Below are positions 11,999 through 19,375 of a DNA stretch of 41,970 bases, in pieces. The notes beneath the pieces were generated by a model, which searched no databases, was not told the DNA's origin, and was given only the letters and a program-made list of their open reading frames with translations. Each line of letters begins with the position of its first letter. The first letter of the stretch is position 1. The translations under genes and the position numbers were made by a program. Location: the NCBI GenBank assembly GCA_017538365.1, contig JAFYIZ010000037.1, forward strand, positions 1 through 41,970. Reading direction: 5' to 3'. The stretch is from a bacterium. Lineage in GTDB: Bacteria; UBP6; UBA1177.

Positions 11999-12041
11999 AA
12001 TTTGCCTCTTTCAAAAGTTAATAAAACGCAAAAAACGGAAT

Positions 12042-13511: not shown

Positions 13512-13522
13512 CTTTTTTGATG

Positions 13523-13548
13523 CGGGGTCGCAAGACCCCGTTTTTTTT
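13523..13548 (+). terminator. Intrinsic terminator after eno
   Basis: Stem CGGGGTC/GACCCCG (13523-13529 with 13534-13540), a GCAA tetraloop and eight T (13541-13548). It is the strongest terminator in the window. Confidence 0.95.
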
Positions 13549-13560
13549 ATGTGAGGTGTC

Positions 13561-14861: not shown

Positions 14862-14895
14862 GAAGATTATTAACAGGTAATTCTTGGAGGAAAAA

Positions 14896-15729
14896 ATGCC
14901 TGAATTAAGAGAAATGCTTAAAGCCGGTGCTCATTTCGGACACCAGAAGCAGAAATGGAATCCCAAAATGGCTCCTTACATTTTCACGGAGCGCAACAAC
15001 ATCCACATCATCAACCTTCAGAAGACGATGGAACTCATCGAAGACGCTAAGAAGTTCGTAAAAGAACTCGGTATGGCGGGCGAAGTTATTTTCCTTGTCG
15101 GAACGAAAAGACAGGCTCAGGAAGTCATCAAGGAAGAAGCTGAGAAAGCCGGTGTTCCTTACGTCAACTACCGTTGGCTCGGCGGAATGCTCACGAATTT
15201 CGTAACAATCAACCAGTCGGTTAAGAAATTCCAGAAATTCGAAGAGATCCTTACCACCGAAAAGAGAAGAATGTACAAGAAAAAAGAGCTTGCAGACATC
15301 GAAAAGAGAAAAGACAAACTCGAAAAGAACCTTGCAGGCGTTATGAAAATGGAAAAAATGCCGGGCGCAATCTTCATCGTTGACCCGATGAAAGAGCATC
15401 TTGCAGTTCACGAAGCTCAGAAACTCGGTATTCCGATAATCTCCATCATCGATACGAACGGAAACCCGGACGGAATCGATTACCTCATTCCGGCAAACGA
15501 CGACGGTATGCGCTGCATCTCCCTTATAACCTCCGACATCGTTGATGCTTACATGGAAGGTCTTGACATCTACAGACAGAAGATCGCTACCGAACAGAAA
15601 GACAAGAAAGAAAGACCGGCAAGAGGCGAAACGAGAAGCGTTGCAGGAAGAAAGGTCCGCGTTAAAAGAATCCAGACTGCTGAAGCTGAAGAGAGTGAAG
15701 CAGTTGAAGAAGCAGCAGAAAAAGAATAG
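14896..15729 (+). CDS. rpsB: Small-subunit ribosomal protein S2
   Basis: 277 residues from ATG 14896, with GGAGG at 14886-14890; a TTG 12 nt earlier overlaps that site. S2 sits at the head-body junction of the 30S subunit and is needed for S1 binding. Marks: LKAGAHFGHQKQKWNPKMAPYIF at the N-terminus, FLVGTKRQAQEVI, YVNYRWLGGMLTNF, and FIVDPMKEHLAVHEAQKLGIPIISIIDTN, PANDDGMRCI at ~200-210. The C-terminal ~50 residues are a charged, Lys/Glu-rich tail. It is followed 9 nt later by tsf, the classic rpsB-tsf pairing. The reverse strand carries a long open frame, which is only codon-bias shadow. Confidence 0.97.
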   Translation: MPELREMLKAGAHFGHQKQKWNPKMAPYIFTERNNIHIINLQKTMELIEDAKKFVKELGMAGEVIFLVGTKRQAQEVIKEEAEKAGVPYVNYRWLGGMLTNFVTINQSVKKFQKFEEILTTEKRRMYKKKELADIEKRKDKLEKNLAGVMKMEKMPGAIFIVDPMKEHLAVHEAQKLGIPIISIIDTNGNPDGIDYLIPANDDGMRCISLITSDIVDAYMEGLDIYRQKIATEQKDKKERPARGETRSVAGRKVRVKRIQTAEAEESEAVEEAAEKE

Positions 15730-15738
15730 GAGGAAACT

Positions 15739-16659
15739 ATGGAAATTACTGCAGGATTGGTTAAAGAACTCAGAGAAAAAAGCGGCGTAGGAATGATGGA
15801 CTGCAAAAAAGCCCTCATGGAAGCTAACGGCGACCTTGATGCGGCTATGCAGATTCTTAAGGATAAAGGTATTGCGAAAGCTGCTAAAAAGGCCGGCAGA
15901 GTAGCTGCAGAAGGCGCTGTTCTCGTTTCTATCGAAGGAAACAAGGGTCTTATGCTCGAGCTCAACTGCGAAACGGACTTTGCTGCAAAAAGCGACGGTT
16001 TCAAAGAACTTTCCCAGAGAATGCTTGACTACTTTGCAAAAAATGCAAAAGAGGAAAATCAGGTCGTTTCGATGGAAGAAAACTTCTACAATGCAGAAGT
16101 TGAGACCATGACGAAAGAAGCTGTTGCAGTTATCGGCGAGAACATCAAACCGAGAAGATTCGTCAAATATGAAGCAGGCGAAAAATCGCTTATCCACTCC
16201 TATGTTCACATGGGCGGAAAAATCGGCGTTATGCTTGAAATCGAAGCATGCTGCGCTGAATGTGCAAAGAAACCGGAAGTTGTTGAAATGGCTGACGGAA
16301 TCGCTATGCAGATCGCTTCAATGCGTCCTGACTGCGTTGACGTAGATTCTTTCCCGCAGGATAAACTTGCTTCCGAAAAACACGCTTTCCTTGCACAGGT
16401 TCTCGAAATGGGAAAACCGCAGGCAGTTGCAGAAAAGATTGTTGAAGGAAAAATCCAGAAATTCATATCTGAAAACACTCTTCTCGAGCAGGTTTTCGTT
16501 ATGAACAATGATCTTAAGATCAAAGATTACGTAAAAGAAACAGGAAAGAAAGTCGGCTGCGAACTTAAAGTCGTCCGCTTCAACCGTTTTGAACTTGGCG
16601 AAGGCATTGAAAAGAAAGTAGAAAATTTCGCGGAAGAAGTTGCAGCTCAGATGAAATAA
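15739..16659 (+). CDS. tsf: Elongation factor Ts
   Basis: 306 residues. EF-Ts exchanges GDP for GTP on EF-Tu. The N-terminal UBA-like domain has VKELREKSGVGMMDCKKAL and the following KGIAKAAKKAGRVAAEGAV segment, then the ELNCETDFAAKSDGF core motif at ~74-89 and YVHMGGKIGVMLEIE at ~155. A well-placed AGGAGG precedes the start. It is co-transcribed with rpsB. Its stop codon is 6 nt before the next ATG, and an intrinsic terminator follows at 16696, inside the next gene. Confidence 0.97.
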   Translation: MEITAGLVKELREKSGVGMMDCKKALMEANGDLDAAMQILKDKGIAKAAKKAGRVAAEGAVLVSIEGNKGLMLELNCETDFAAKSDGFKELSQRMLDYFAKNAKEENQVVSMEENFYNAEVETMTKEAVAVIGENIKPRRFVKYEAGEKSLIHSYVHMGGKIGVMLEIEACCAECAKKPEVVEMADGIAMQIASMRPDCVDVDSFPQDKLASEKHAFLAQVLEMGKPQAVAEKIVEGKIQKFISENTLLEQVFVMNNDLKIKDYVKETGKKVGCELKVVRFNRFELGEGIEKKVENFAEEVAAQMK

Positions 16660-16665
16660 TTTTTC

Positions 16666-18120
16666 ATGAGCGATTTTTGTGATTTTACATTCTCGGGAGC
16701 GTCTTTCAAAAGGGCGCTCCTTTCTTTTTTTATAATAATCTCATTCTTTTTCCTTTCGGCAGAGGCGGCTGAAAAGGAAAACACTGATAAAATTGCAAGC
16801 AATGCCAATCCGACCGTTTATACGAAAGATGAATTTATCGAGAAATTCATAGCGAAAACCGGTCTTGGAGACGCTTCAAAATATAGATTGCAGATGGCGG
16901 ATGCCGATTACGATTACGTAATTGCGCAGATGTTTCCGCGACTGAAACTCGAAACAGGAATCGGTCCTCACCCGAAGTATGTTTACGAACAGTCAGAGAT
17001 ACTTCCTGATGCCGACGGCGACGGTATTCCTGAATTTAAAGAGAGAACCTGGCACAAATACTACAGCGATATTACGGAATGGGGTATCGCAGTAAGAGCG
17101 AAGATCGAATTCATCCTTCCGATTTACACTTTCGGAAAAGTCACTGCGGCAAAACATGCGGCTTGGGCACAGATCGAACTCAGAAAAGCGGAATCGAAAA
17201 TCGGAGACCTCAAGTTGAAAAAAGAGGCTGCGACGATCTACTGGTCCTGGGTGATGGCGCAAAGCTACCTTGACATCATGGAACCGGCGATGAAGGAGAT
17301 CAACAAAGTTGAAGAAAAGATCAGAGATATGCTCTACGAAGAAAAAGAGGGCGTTACGCAAAAAGATCTCAACAAGCTGCTCATCGAAAAAGAGAAGATC
17401 CAATATCTCTACGACAGGCTGATTTTTCAAATCGATACTTTGAAATCTCTTATTACCGAAGTTTTAGGCGAAAACTGGGCTTTTGCCGACAAAGAGATGA
17501 TAAAACAGGATTATTCCAAAGAAATGCCGGAACTTGTCGATTTTATGAAGCAGAACAGTCCTTATTCAGCGTATGTCCAGAAAGGGCTTACCATCTACGA
17601 AAATCTTTATAAACTTGAAGTGAGACGCACTCTGCCGAATTTCGGAATGATCGGTTCATATTCCTTCAGATACACGAGTTCGGTCGATGAAAAATATTAT
17701 CCCGAGGCAAACAGCCCCTACAACGGCTACGACGGTGAAATCGGGATAGGACTCAGTTTTAACCTTAACATCATGGAACAGGTTAGAAAGATCCAGAAAG
17801 CCAAAGCTGAATGGAATTACATGAAGGCAAAGGCGTTTTTTGCAGAGCAGAACGTTTCTTTGCAGATACAAAAAAAATATAATGATTTAAAGGCGTTGGA
17901 TTCGCATATTTCGCATCTCAAAGCGATACGCAAAACTTCGAAAGGAATGCTGACGACCGAATATGCCAACTATGAATCAGGCATGACGACTGACACGAAA
18001 GATCTGATCGACGCAGTAAAGGCGTTTTTCGAGAACGAGCAGGAATACATCAAGGCGATTTACGATTACAATATGAAAATTGAAGATATTAATGAATTTA
18101 CGGGGGCGGTAGAGAAATGA
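16666..18120 (+). CDS. TolC-like outer-membrane efflux protein
   Basis: 484 residues. Outer-membrane efflux proteins form trimeric channel-tunnels for export. The N-terminus has a Sec signal: KR followed by a Phe/Ile-rich core and cleavage after SAEA (~33-36). The mature protein shows the long coiled-coil heptads of the OEP family (~50-110, 160-260 and 360-470), with LPIYTFGKVTAAKHAAWAQIELRKAE and FNLNIMEQVRKIQKAKAEW as the two pseudo-repeats. No Shine-Dalgarno is visible and the ATG is 6 nt after the tsf stop, so translation is probably coupled. No later start is possible without losing the signal peptide, yet codons ~11-22 coincide with an intrinsic terminator. mlaC overlaps its end by 4 nt. 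Confidence 0.8.
   Translation: MSDFCDFTFSGASFKRALLSFFIIISFFFLSAEAAEKENTDKIASNANPTVYTKDEFIEKFIAKTGLGDASKYRLQMADADYDYVIAQMFPRLKLETGIGPHPKYVYEQSEILPDADGDGIPEFKERTWHKYYSDITEWGIAVRAKIEFILPIYTFGKVTAAKHAAWAQIELRKAESKIGDLKLKKEAATIYWSWVMAQSYLDIMEPAMKEINKVEEKIRDMLYEEKEGVTQKDLNKLLIEKEKIQYLYDRLIFQIDTLKSLITEVLGENWAFADKEMIKQDYSKEMPELVDFMKQNSPYSAYVQKGLTIYENLYKLEVRRTLPNFGMIGSYSFRYTSSVDEKYYPEANSPYNGYDGEIGIGLSFNLNIMEQVRKIQKAKAEWNYMKAKAFFAEQNVSLQIQKKYNDLKALDSHISHLKAIRKTSKGMLTTEYANYESGMTTDTKDLIDAVKAFFENEQEYIKAIYDYNMKIEDINEFTGAVEK
16696..16730 (+). terminator. Intrinsic terminator of rpsB-tsf, embedded in the TolC-like gene
   Basis: Stem GGAGCGTC/GGCGCTCC (16696-16703 with 16713-16720, one G-U pair), a 9-nt loop and then TTTCTTTTTT. 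It is 37 nt after the tsf stop. The loop encodes the basic FKR of the signal peptide and the T-run encodes its Phe residues. Confidence 0.8.
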
Positions 18121-18827
18121 AACAAATTTTAATTGCAACAGTTATGTTTTTCTGTTTCGGACTTTTCGCCCAGGCGGCTCCGGCGGCTGAGAAACCCGCG
18201 GCTGACAATTCAGGGCTGGATGTCGCAGCAGCGATGAAACTGCTTGAAACCAAAGAGCAGGCTTTTGAGAAACTGGCAAACACTAATCCTAAAAAGGGAA
18301 CTCCGAAATACGCCGCAAAAGATAAGGAAATAAAGGAAATCGTTGAAGAAATCATCGACTACCGCTTTATTTCGGAATATATAATCGGCAAAAAATGGCT
18401 TGAGACTCCCGACAGTAAAAAAGAAGAATTGTTCAATAAAATCAAAGAGTTGTTTACAGATGTCTACTTGGATAAACTTTTCTACAACAAAAGTTACGAG
18501 AAAAAATATTTAGACAAGGGAACCGAGAAAAAATATCTGAAAGGTGTTCCGGAAAGTATCTACATAACTTCTGAAATCCAGGGAATTTTCAAAGGAAAAA
18601 CAGTCGGTTACGAGCTTATTTACCACATCAGGAAGATTGATGGAAAATATAAGGTTTTTGATGTTGAGCTCGATACGGTGAGCCTTGCGAGAAACTATCG
18701 CGAGCAGTTCGAAAAGAATCTCAAAGAAAAAAGCGTTGACGAACTTATCGCCAATATCGATAAAAAAATAAAGTCTTCGAAATCGGAAAAACAGGAAAAG
18801 AAAGAAACAAAACCTGCTGCCAAGTAG
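18117..18827 (+). CDS. mlaC: MlaC-family periplasmic phospholipid-binding protein
   Basis: 236 residues with a signal peptide cleaved near AQA|AP (~residue 20). MlaC shuttles phospholipids across the periplasm between the outer-membrane MlaA complex and MlaFEDB. The family pattern is visible: an all-helical N-terminal half with DYRFISEYIIGKKW, then a twisted sheet containing YELIYHIRKIDGKYKVFDVELDTVSLARNYREQF, the MlaC closing motif. A Lys/Glu-rich tail follows (~215-236). It overlaps the TolC-like gene by 4 nt (ATGA), so the two are made together. An MlaE permease lies upstream near 8.4 kb. The pairing of mlaC with a TolC-like gene suggests a joint envelope-lipid or export role. Confidence 0.82.
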   Translation: MKQILIATVMFFCFGLFAQAAPAAEKPAADNSGLDVAAAMKLLETKEQAFEKLANTNPKKGTPKYAAKDKEIKEIVEEIIDYRFISEYIIGKKWLETPDSKKEELFNKIKELFTDVYLDKLFYNKSYEKKYLDKGTEKKYLKGVPESIYITSEIQGIFKGKTVGYELIYHIRKIDGKYKVFDVELDTVSLARNYREQFEKNLKEKSVDELIANIDKKIKSSKSEKQEKKETKPAAK

Positions 18828-18832
18828 CCGAA

Positions 18833-19375
18833 ATGAGTGAGAAAATTCTTCTTCATGCCTGCTGTGCGCCATGCACGAGCGCGACTCTTGAAAAGATATT
18901 AAGCGACAATCCGGATTCCGAAATTTCTGTTTTTTACTACAATCCCAACATTTCTCCCGCGGAAGAAGAGGAAAAACGCTACGCAGAGCTTGTCCGCTAC
19001 ATCGATACACGCTACGGAAACGCGGTCAGAGTCCTGCGCGGAAAATACGACTATGATTCGTGGAATTCGCTCATCGAGCCCGTTTCATTAAGCGGTGAAG
19101 GCGGTTTCAGATGCAGGATCTGCTACTATCTGCGGCTTCTCGAAAGTTTCAAAAAGGCGGCTGAACTCAGCTGTGATGCGGTGAGTACGACTCTGGCGAT
19201 AAGTCCTTACAAAAATTTCGAGTGGCTTGACGAAATCGGAAAACTGCTTTCAAAAAAATTCGGGATCAGGTGGTTTCTCGAAAGATGGGATTACAAGCGT
19301 TCGATAGAACTTTCGAAAGAATACGGCTTATACCGGCAGAAATACTGCGGATGCGATTACAGTAAAAGGCGTTAG
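18833..19375 (+). CDS. queH: Epoxyqueuosine reductase QueH
   Basis: 180 residues. QueH (formerly DUF208) is the cobalamin-independent enzyme that reduces epoxyqueuosine to queuosine in tRNA, replacing QueG. Its metal- and cluster-binding cysteines are all present: the adjacent pair HACCAPC (C10, C11, with C14), FRCRICYY (C94, C97) and YCGCDYS near the C-terminus (C172, C174). The FYYNPNISP segment and the STTLAISPYKN segment are also family marks. Length is normal. It starts 5 nt after mlaC and probably shares its transcript. Confidence 0.93.
   Translation: MSEKILLHACCAPCTSATLEKILSDNPDSEISVFYYNPNISPAEEEEKRYAELVRYIDTRYGNAVRVLRGKYDYDSWNSLIEPVSLSGEGGFRCRICYYLRLLESFKKAAELSCDAVSTTLAISPYKNFEWLDEIGKLLSKKFGIRWFLERWDYKRSIELSKEYGLYRQKYCGCDYSKRR

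Follow-up and report, generated by a model that had tools for sequence, protein, structure and literature searches.

A terminator-like stem-loop within the signal-peptide codons of a TolC-like gene that follows rpsB-tsf

Intrinsic terminators inside open reading frames (ORFs) are already known, for instance in brfA and in leader peptides; the case presented here is a putative terminator embedded in the codons of a signal peptide. As described in the available text of the report by Li et al. (2015), translation in E. coli cut the efficiency of a terminator lying 30 bp past an AUG by ~10%, and full efficiency was reached by terminators more than 27 nt beyond a stop codon, the authors arguing that new ribosomes fail to catch the polymerase within the first 100 bases (PMC4824070). 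In the pil1 leader of S. gallolyticus, according to the accessible part of that study, a distance of 39 bp from stop codon to stem corresponds to the low state (PMC3894217). SMRT-Cappable-seq data for E. coli, again from available text, include rpsB-tsf reads that extend past the known terminator into pyrH-frr (PMC6131387). The accessible text on ribosome rescue adds that arfA, like brfA, is produced from non-stop mRNA, the brfA product corresponding to ~62 of 71 codons (PMC6881298).

The locus studied here lies in a stretch of 41,970 nucleotides, analyzed as a whole and hereafter called the window, from a bacterial genome; those of its relatives that bear names are assemblies from rumen and gut, including two with the label UBP6. 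The genes rpsB and tsf are followed, in 5' to 3' order, by a gene for a TolC-like protein (Pfam OEP), a MlaC-like gene and queH; their coordinates and those of the smaller elements are collected in table 1. The TolC-like gene is abbreviated below as tolC, even if its product scores far under the cut-offs of the NCBIfam TolC models. Searches with Rfam returned only L20_leader at the window locus (21.9 bits versus a cut-off of 58.7, E 0.27) and no common family in nine relatives; the L20_leader identity was dropped as chance, its score being far under the cut-off. Positions 1-141 of the window recur without change at the beginning of a second contig from this genome (G000:C1); the window hence opens in a repeat at a contig end.

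Table 1. Features of the rpsB-tsf-tolC-mlaC-queH region (window positions)
Feature	Position	Strand	Evidence or remark
rpsB, ribosomal protein S2	14884..15729	+	Pfam Ribosomal_S2, E 6.7e-88; first of the pair preceding the terminator
tsf, elongation factor Ts	15739..16659	+	NCBIfam TIGR00116, E 1.4e-90, over cut-off; Pfam EF_TS
Possible weak hairpin, tsf end (GCUCA) with tolC start region (UGAGC)	16645..16671	+	
tsf stop codon TAA	16657..16659	+	36 nt ahead of the stem
6-nt spacer, tsf stop to tolC start	16660..16665	+	no Shine-Dalgarno motif; 6-8 nt across the genus
tolC, TolC-like outer-membrane efflux protein gene (OEP), ATG at 16666	16666..18120	+	Pfam OEP, E 1.8e-24
Signal-peptide codons MSDFCDFTFSGASFKRALLSFFIIISFFFLSAEAA	16666..16770	+	judged by eye from translation and relatives
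Terminator stem-loop, 11 pairs	16696..16720	+	tolC codons 11-19
Terminator U-tract	16721..16731	+	Leu/Ser/Phe codons opening the hydrophobic core; reaches codon 22
MlaC-like gene, 3' of tolC	18117..18827	+	Pfam MlaC, E 9.9e-22
queH, epoxyqueuosine reductase, downstream	18833..19375	+	Pfam QueH, E 1.6e-52

The stem-loop has the composition GGAGCGTCTTT-CAA-AAGGGCGCTCC (-15.3 kcal/mol) and is followed directly by the U-tract TTTCTTTTTTT, which is the arrangement of an intrinsic terminator, namely a GC-rich stem with a U-tract at once after it. A pattern scan, in which the stem extends to 12 pairs at 16695-16721, listed this site first among 18 terminator-like sites between window positions 12000 and 22000, and the fold of 101 nt around it has a z of -4.03, none of 200 shuffles being equally stable. 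(The possible hairpin at the tsf end listed in table 1 is almost invariant in the genus and can thus barely be tested by covariation.) A preceding reading of the locus, made from the sequence only, had placed stem and T-run wholly within about codons 11-22 of the TolC-like frame and had claimed that no downstream start could replace its ATG. Both statements hold, since ATG, GTG or TTG codons occur in frame among codons 1-90 of tolC only at positions 1, 75, 77 and 89. As there is no alternative start before codon 75, the signal peptide requires codon 1, and because this start lies upstream of the stem and has no later substitute, every functional tolC message reads through the terminator. The dependence of a downstream gene on readthrough, as in a tuned partial terminator, is thus found for tolC; mlaC and queH could be served by separate promoters.

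We scanned for terminators in 41 stretches of the genome (750,259 bases with 666 called genes, about one third of the total). Scores of at least 33 were obtained for 14 intergenic sites, one antisense site and one sense intragenic site, the latter being that in tolC, while a threshold of at least 30 gave 23 intergenic, 15 antisense and four sense intragenic sites (two in the first 100 bases of genes, two deeper). A genome-wide habit of intragenic terminators is therefore unsupported, the tolC site being the sole sense intragenic one scoring at least 33 in the 750,259 bases. In stem, U-tract and energy the embedded terminator is on par with the intergenic terminators of the same genome, and by sequence it ranks among the better terminators there. 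Where an intergenic terminator scores at least 28 and a same-strand stop codon precedes it by no more than 50 nt, the two are 10-42 nt apart (20-30 in most cases), and the distance of the tolC-embedded stem from the tsf stop is inside this range. The terminator is in the normal place after tsf; the misplaced item is the tolC start, which precedes it.

A strong ordinary terminator at 13522-13551 of the window separates eno-like and alr-like genes (named by eye), lying 10 nt past the stop of the former and 19 nt ahead of the start of the latter. A second intragenic candidate, in an obg-like gene (named by eye; census of 367,571 bases), was rejected, its start having been called too early and its terminator being intergenic. 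On contig G000:C1, a stem followed by six T lies less than 100 bases into a vapC-like gene, also named by eye (locus L095, 9251-9289), 28 nt past the upstream stop; the frequency of sites with that score is about the chance level. A repeated or mobile terminator was likewise discarded: the 86-base stretch around the tolC site has one strong match in 12 of 15 genus genomes and no second strong copy in any of the 15, the other matches listed having E values of at least 0.06.

To place the overlap in an evolutionary frame, 25 genomes of the order were searched. The TolC-like gene is present in 23 of them, always directly after tsf (G018 has it divided between two contigs), and in 19 of the 23 a terminator-like stem with a U-run lies inside the ORF, 3' of the start codon, at codons 9-21. 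One 25-base stem core is common to fifteen of these, comprising the twelve genomes of the genus plus G005, G015 and G016, with the exact stem of the window genome shared by a total of six; unrelated stems occupy the same place, at codons 11-21, in G018, G019 and the pair G020/G021. A good U-tract adjoins the stem directly in 18 of the 19 genomes, that of G018 being poor (tail score 2.91). Measured to where the stem begins, the distance in all 19 is 28-54 nt for the tsf stop and 26-37 nt for the tolC start; the position of the stem tracks the latter (r = 0.96 over eight lineages that are related and hence not independent). No stem of note is present at the tsf-tolC junction of G017 and G024. 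In G022 (locus L024) and G023 (L021) a weaker stem spans the tolC start codon and is followed by a T-rich run; it may be either a remnant or a different solution.

In the phylogenetic tree of tsf the genomes with the shared stem form one group (support 90/94), the other stems and the losses being scattered, while the TolC tree requires two changes for the shared stem. This turnover suggests that the place of the stem has been kept, not its sequence. Signal peptide and stem are conserved together in 19 of the 23 genomes, which the sequence-only reading had named as a condition for its own survival, and in this respect it was right: the overlap is real and old, and transcription of tolC passes the terminator. 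At the G005 junction (locus L014), the TolC-like frame has no ATG, GTG or TTG before the stem and a GGAGG motif precedes ATT ATT, which suggests that ATT, rare as a start codon, serves as the start. A plain terminator lies ~5 nt after tsf in two of three genomes (G027 and G025) from the phylum's other family and is followed by a pyrH-like gene (by eye); nothing close after tsf was found in the third, G026.

The coding constraint was evaluated by recoding, whereby the first 50 codons of tolC were swapped for synonyms and the trials giving an equal or better terminator were counted. The observed score was reached in 4 of 1000 trials for the window genome, in 0-8 of 1000 for eleven genus genomes and in 4 of 600 for G007. 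Outside the genus, the counts were 0/600 for each of G005, G015, G016, G020 and G021, 1/600 for G018 and 11/600 for G019. The stem-less G017 gave 154/600, and the weak start-codon stems of G023 (52/600) and G022 (73/600) were easily matched (the series does not include G024). Judged from these recoding tests, the unique sense intragenic match at the higher threshold and the conservation within and outside the genus, the overlap of terminator and tolC codons is beyond chance.

Synonymous differences among the 12 genus genomes amount to 0.000 for tolC codons 2-8 and 0.041 for codons 11-23 as compared with 0.407 for codons 51-484. Of 448 windows along the gene, the 12 with the lowest values all begin at codons 1-12. 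No comparable drop is present in mlaC (0.353 for codons 2-8, 0.440 for codons 9-24), the corresponding values for queH are 0.208 and 0.325, and rpsB and tsf show low values along the whole gene (the comparison of gene starts covers 9 of 12 sequences for rpsB, 10 of 12 for tsf and 4 of 12 for alr, the rest being cut off or unaligned at the start). At the protein level, identity of the TolC-like sequences in the genus is 0.95 for codons 9-24 versus 0.44 for codons 25-50. Within the shared stem, 94.8% of cells are paired, versus 44-65% when the stem is slid along the alignment, and changes mostly preserve pairs, with just one compensated pair (in G005). Covariation in the shared stem did not exceed the shuffle control (316/500) and is not significant, so the case for an RNA function rests on recoding, synonymous conservation and stem replacement. 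The embedded stem has been kept or replaced in 19 of the 23 genomes, and within the genus the synonymous change of 0.41 drops to roughly 0.04 over codons 1-24; RNA and peptide are therefore under joint selection in this part of tolC.

A further stretch 5' of the stem, consisting of the tsf end and tolC codons 1-8 (16627-16695), shows nearly no synonymous change; the value for the last ten tsf codons is 0.019 in the genus. A longer RNA element spanning this stretch is possible.

With moderate confidence, we favour the interpretation that the stem is the terminator of the rpsB-tsf unit, over which tolC has been built, and that it works mostly independently of translation, setting a low ratio of tolC to tsf. 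Most polymerases would stop at ~16725-16732 and yield abundant rpsB-tsf mRNA, whereas the minority reading through would produce all tolC message, plus that of mlaC and queH unless these are self-promoted. A ribosome halted at the tsf stop or at the tolC start would just fail to cover the stem, which would also be too near the latter for a fresh ribosome to catch the polymerase, so that termination would occur mostly regardless of translation and the tolC:tsf ratio would be low. Rapid restart by ribosomes leaving tsf may raise readthrough somewhat, with tolC-mlaC-queH held far under rpsB-tsf and modestly modulated by ribosomes. Rho, found in 23 of the 25 genomes of the order, could also cut short untranslated readthrough RNA. 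The embedded terminator looks like a lasting means of keeping an outer-membrane gene low after the highly expressed tsf.

This constitutive partial terminator draws support from the likeness to intergenic terminators, the conservation and replacement of the stem, the recoding and synonymous-difference results, the plain terminators after tsf in the other family, the E. coli reads past rpsB-tsf, and distance: the spacing of the stem in all 19 genomes falls in the zone where, in the available text, Li et al. saw near-full efficiency (PMC4824070), and the values for the window genome (AUG to stem 30 nt, tsf stop to stem 36 nt) favour it when set against theirs. We infer from sequence that termination takes place in the cell, and likewise its efficiency and its weak dependence on translation. 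Several observations count against the favoured interpretation. The stem position follows the tolC start too, as a terminator serving tsf alone need not, even if this tracking could result from what the signal peptide must encode, the U-tract having to fall on the hydrophobic core. The invariance spans tolC codons 1-8 and the last ten codons of tsf, beyond the needs of a bare terminator. Moreover, an efficient terminator after a live start would generate non-stop messages, and selection should disfavour so costly an arrangement (a weak tolC start would also limit such messages). Finally, four of the 23 genomes are without a clear stem and the U-run of G018 is poor.

The tracking of the start and the invariance would fit a translation-gated attenuator, in which ribosomes leaving tsf restart at the tolC AUG and only a quick restart keeps the stem open and tolC-mlaC-queH transcribed; we regard this as a less likely possibility. 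The terminator does lie in a translated ORF ahead of the genes to be controlled, in 18 of 23 genomes 2-9 nt separate the tsf stop from the tolC start, a distance suited to restart, the spacing from stem to AUG is tighter than that from stem to tsf stop, and the RNA from the tsf end to the U-tract is near-invariant in the genus. Ribosome-driven readthrough of terminators is proven elsewhere, as the available texts report (Danne 2014, PMC3894217; pyrBI per PMC4824070), and a loss of 10% from an efficiency of ~0.9 would roughly double readthrough. However, ~10% is all that the terminator 30 bp past an AUG lost in the work of Li et al., to judge from its accessible part (PMC4824070). Fast initiation at tolC is not expected either, since in 21 of 23 genomes its start has no Shine-Dalgarno motif (AGGA, GGAG or GAGG); such a motif occurs at 433 of 661 sampled genes of the window genome, where it helped to choose the starts. 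A competing antiterminator stem backed by covariation was looked for and not found, none of 43 alternative pairs having both sides changed in relatives within this nearly invariant region. (Long-range pairing of the A-rich tsf sequence with the U-tract was set aside, there being hardly any variation with which to test it.)

The sequence-only reading had made readthrough beyond tsf dependent on translation of the tolC start. Given the effect of ~10% at 30 bp in the available text of Li et al. (PMC4824070), a strong dependence is unlikely and a modest one is possible; the link of the export genes to translational capacity that it also suggested is conjectural. That the n-region of the signal peptide doubles as a translation-gated attenuator, release into tolC-mlaC-queH reporting the restart speed of tsf ribosomes, appears unlikely. 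If true, transcription of envelope genes would be tied to ribosome supply by an element that, for as long as a bacterial order has existed, has changed its stem but held its place.

Very improbable, in our estimate, is a non-stop device, in which terminated messages contain the tolC start and no stop codon and their rescue by tmRNA lowers or couples the output of tsf and tolC. The genome does encode a tmRNA (137.8 bits, over the cut-off), expression of the upstream gene was halved in the construct of Li et al. and there ascribed to non-stop rescue (PMC4824070, available text), and the internal terminator of brfA is proven (PMC6881298, available text). The terminator of our locus does lie in an ORF ahead of its stop codon, as in systems of the ArfA/BrfA type, but the truncated product would not be a functional ribosome-rescue factor; it would consist of ~22 residues of a TolC-like signal peptide, still inside the ribosome, and could not act by itself. 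The weak tolC start furthermore suggests that such events are minimised. Strong stems can shield RNA 3' ends, and the hairpin might accordingly protect or process the 3' end of tsf mRNA without terminating; we hold this to be very unlikely too, since a protective stem needs no U-tract and yet a good one adjoins the stem in nearly all stem-bearing genomes. A mere coding coincidence, by which Phe-rich signal peptides yield U-runs and a stem arises by chance, is scarcely credible, for signal-peptide codons do yield U-runs (the median score after recoding is ~18) but recoding, conservation and stem replacement in other lineages contradict it, as do nine mlaC signal-peptide regions used as controls, none as strong and the best reaching 27.6.

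Our searches of the literature (titles and abstract openings, mostly outside subscription journals) found no terminator in signal-peptide codons or so placed after tsf. In the E. coli ampC attenuator, the terminator of the upstream operon lies in the leader of a cell-envelope gene and is said to be opened by ribosomes during fast growth; it differs in sitting in an untranslated leader, not in signal-peptide codons as in the case of tolC. The locus offers a clear natural case of one DNA stretch under two codes, intrinsic terminator and signal peptide, in which a whole gene can be expressed only by readthrough. Software for gene calling or terminator finding that bars intragenic terminators would overlook such sites.

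The comparisons that follow refer to the available text of the respective reports. Attenuators of the pyrBI type also have an intrinsic terminator in the first ~100-135 bp of an ORF that can be opened by ribosome position, but they use a separate leader peptide with pause sites, whereas here the gene is structural and the stem encodes its signal peptide (PMC4824070). In S. gallolyticus pil1, too, translation into the stem blocks termination and raises downstream transcription, albeit within a phase-variable leader peptide ahead of the operon and not in the coding gene itself (PMC3894217). The brfA gene has an intrinsic terminator in its ORF that gives rise to non-stop mRNA (PMC6881298); in brfA and arfA, however, the terminator is close to the 3' end of the very gene encoding the rescue factor, whereas in the tolC case it occupies the 5' end of an adjacent gene. 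E. coli shares the terminator after tsf and the readthrough into the next genes, although there the next gene is pyrH, not a TolC-like one, and an overlap with the next coding sequence is not described in the text available (PMC6131387). Construct W48 of Li et al. (2015) has a near-identical geometry, its terminator lying 30 bp past the AUG and beyond an upstream gene, but it is artificial, built with lambda tR2 in E. coli (PMC4824070); the tolC locus is the natural counterpart to that synthetic test.
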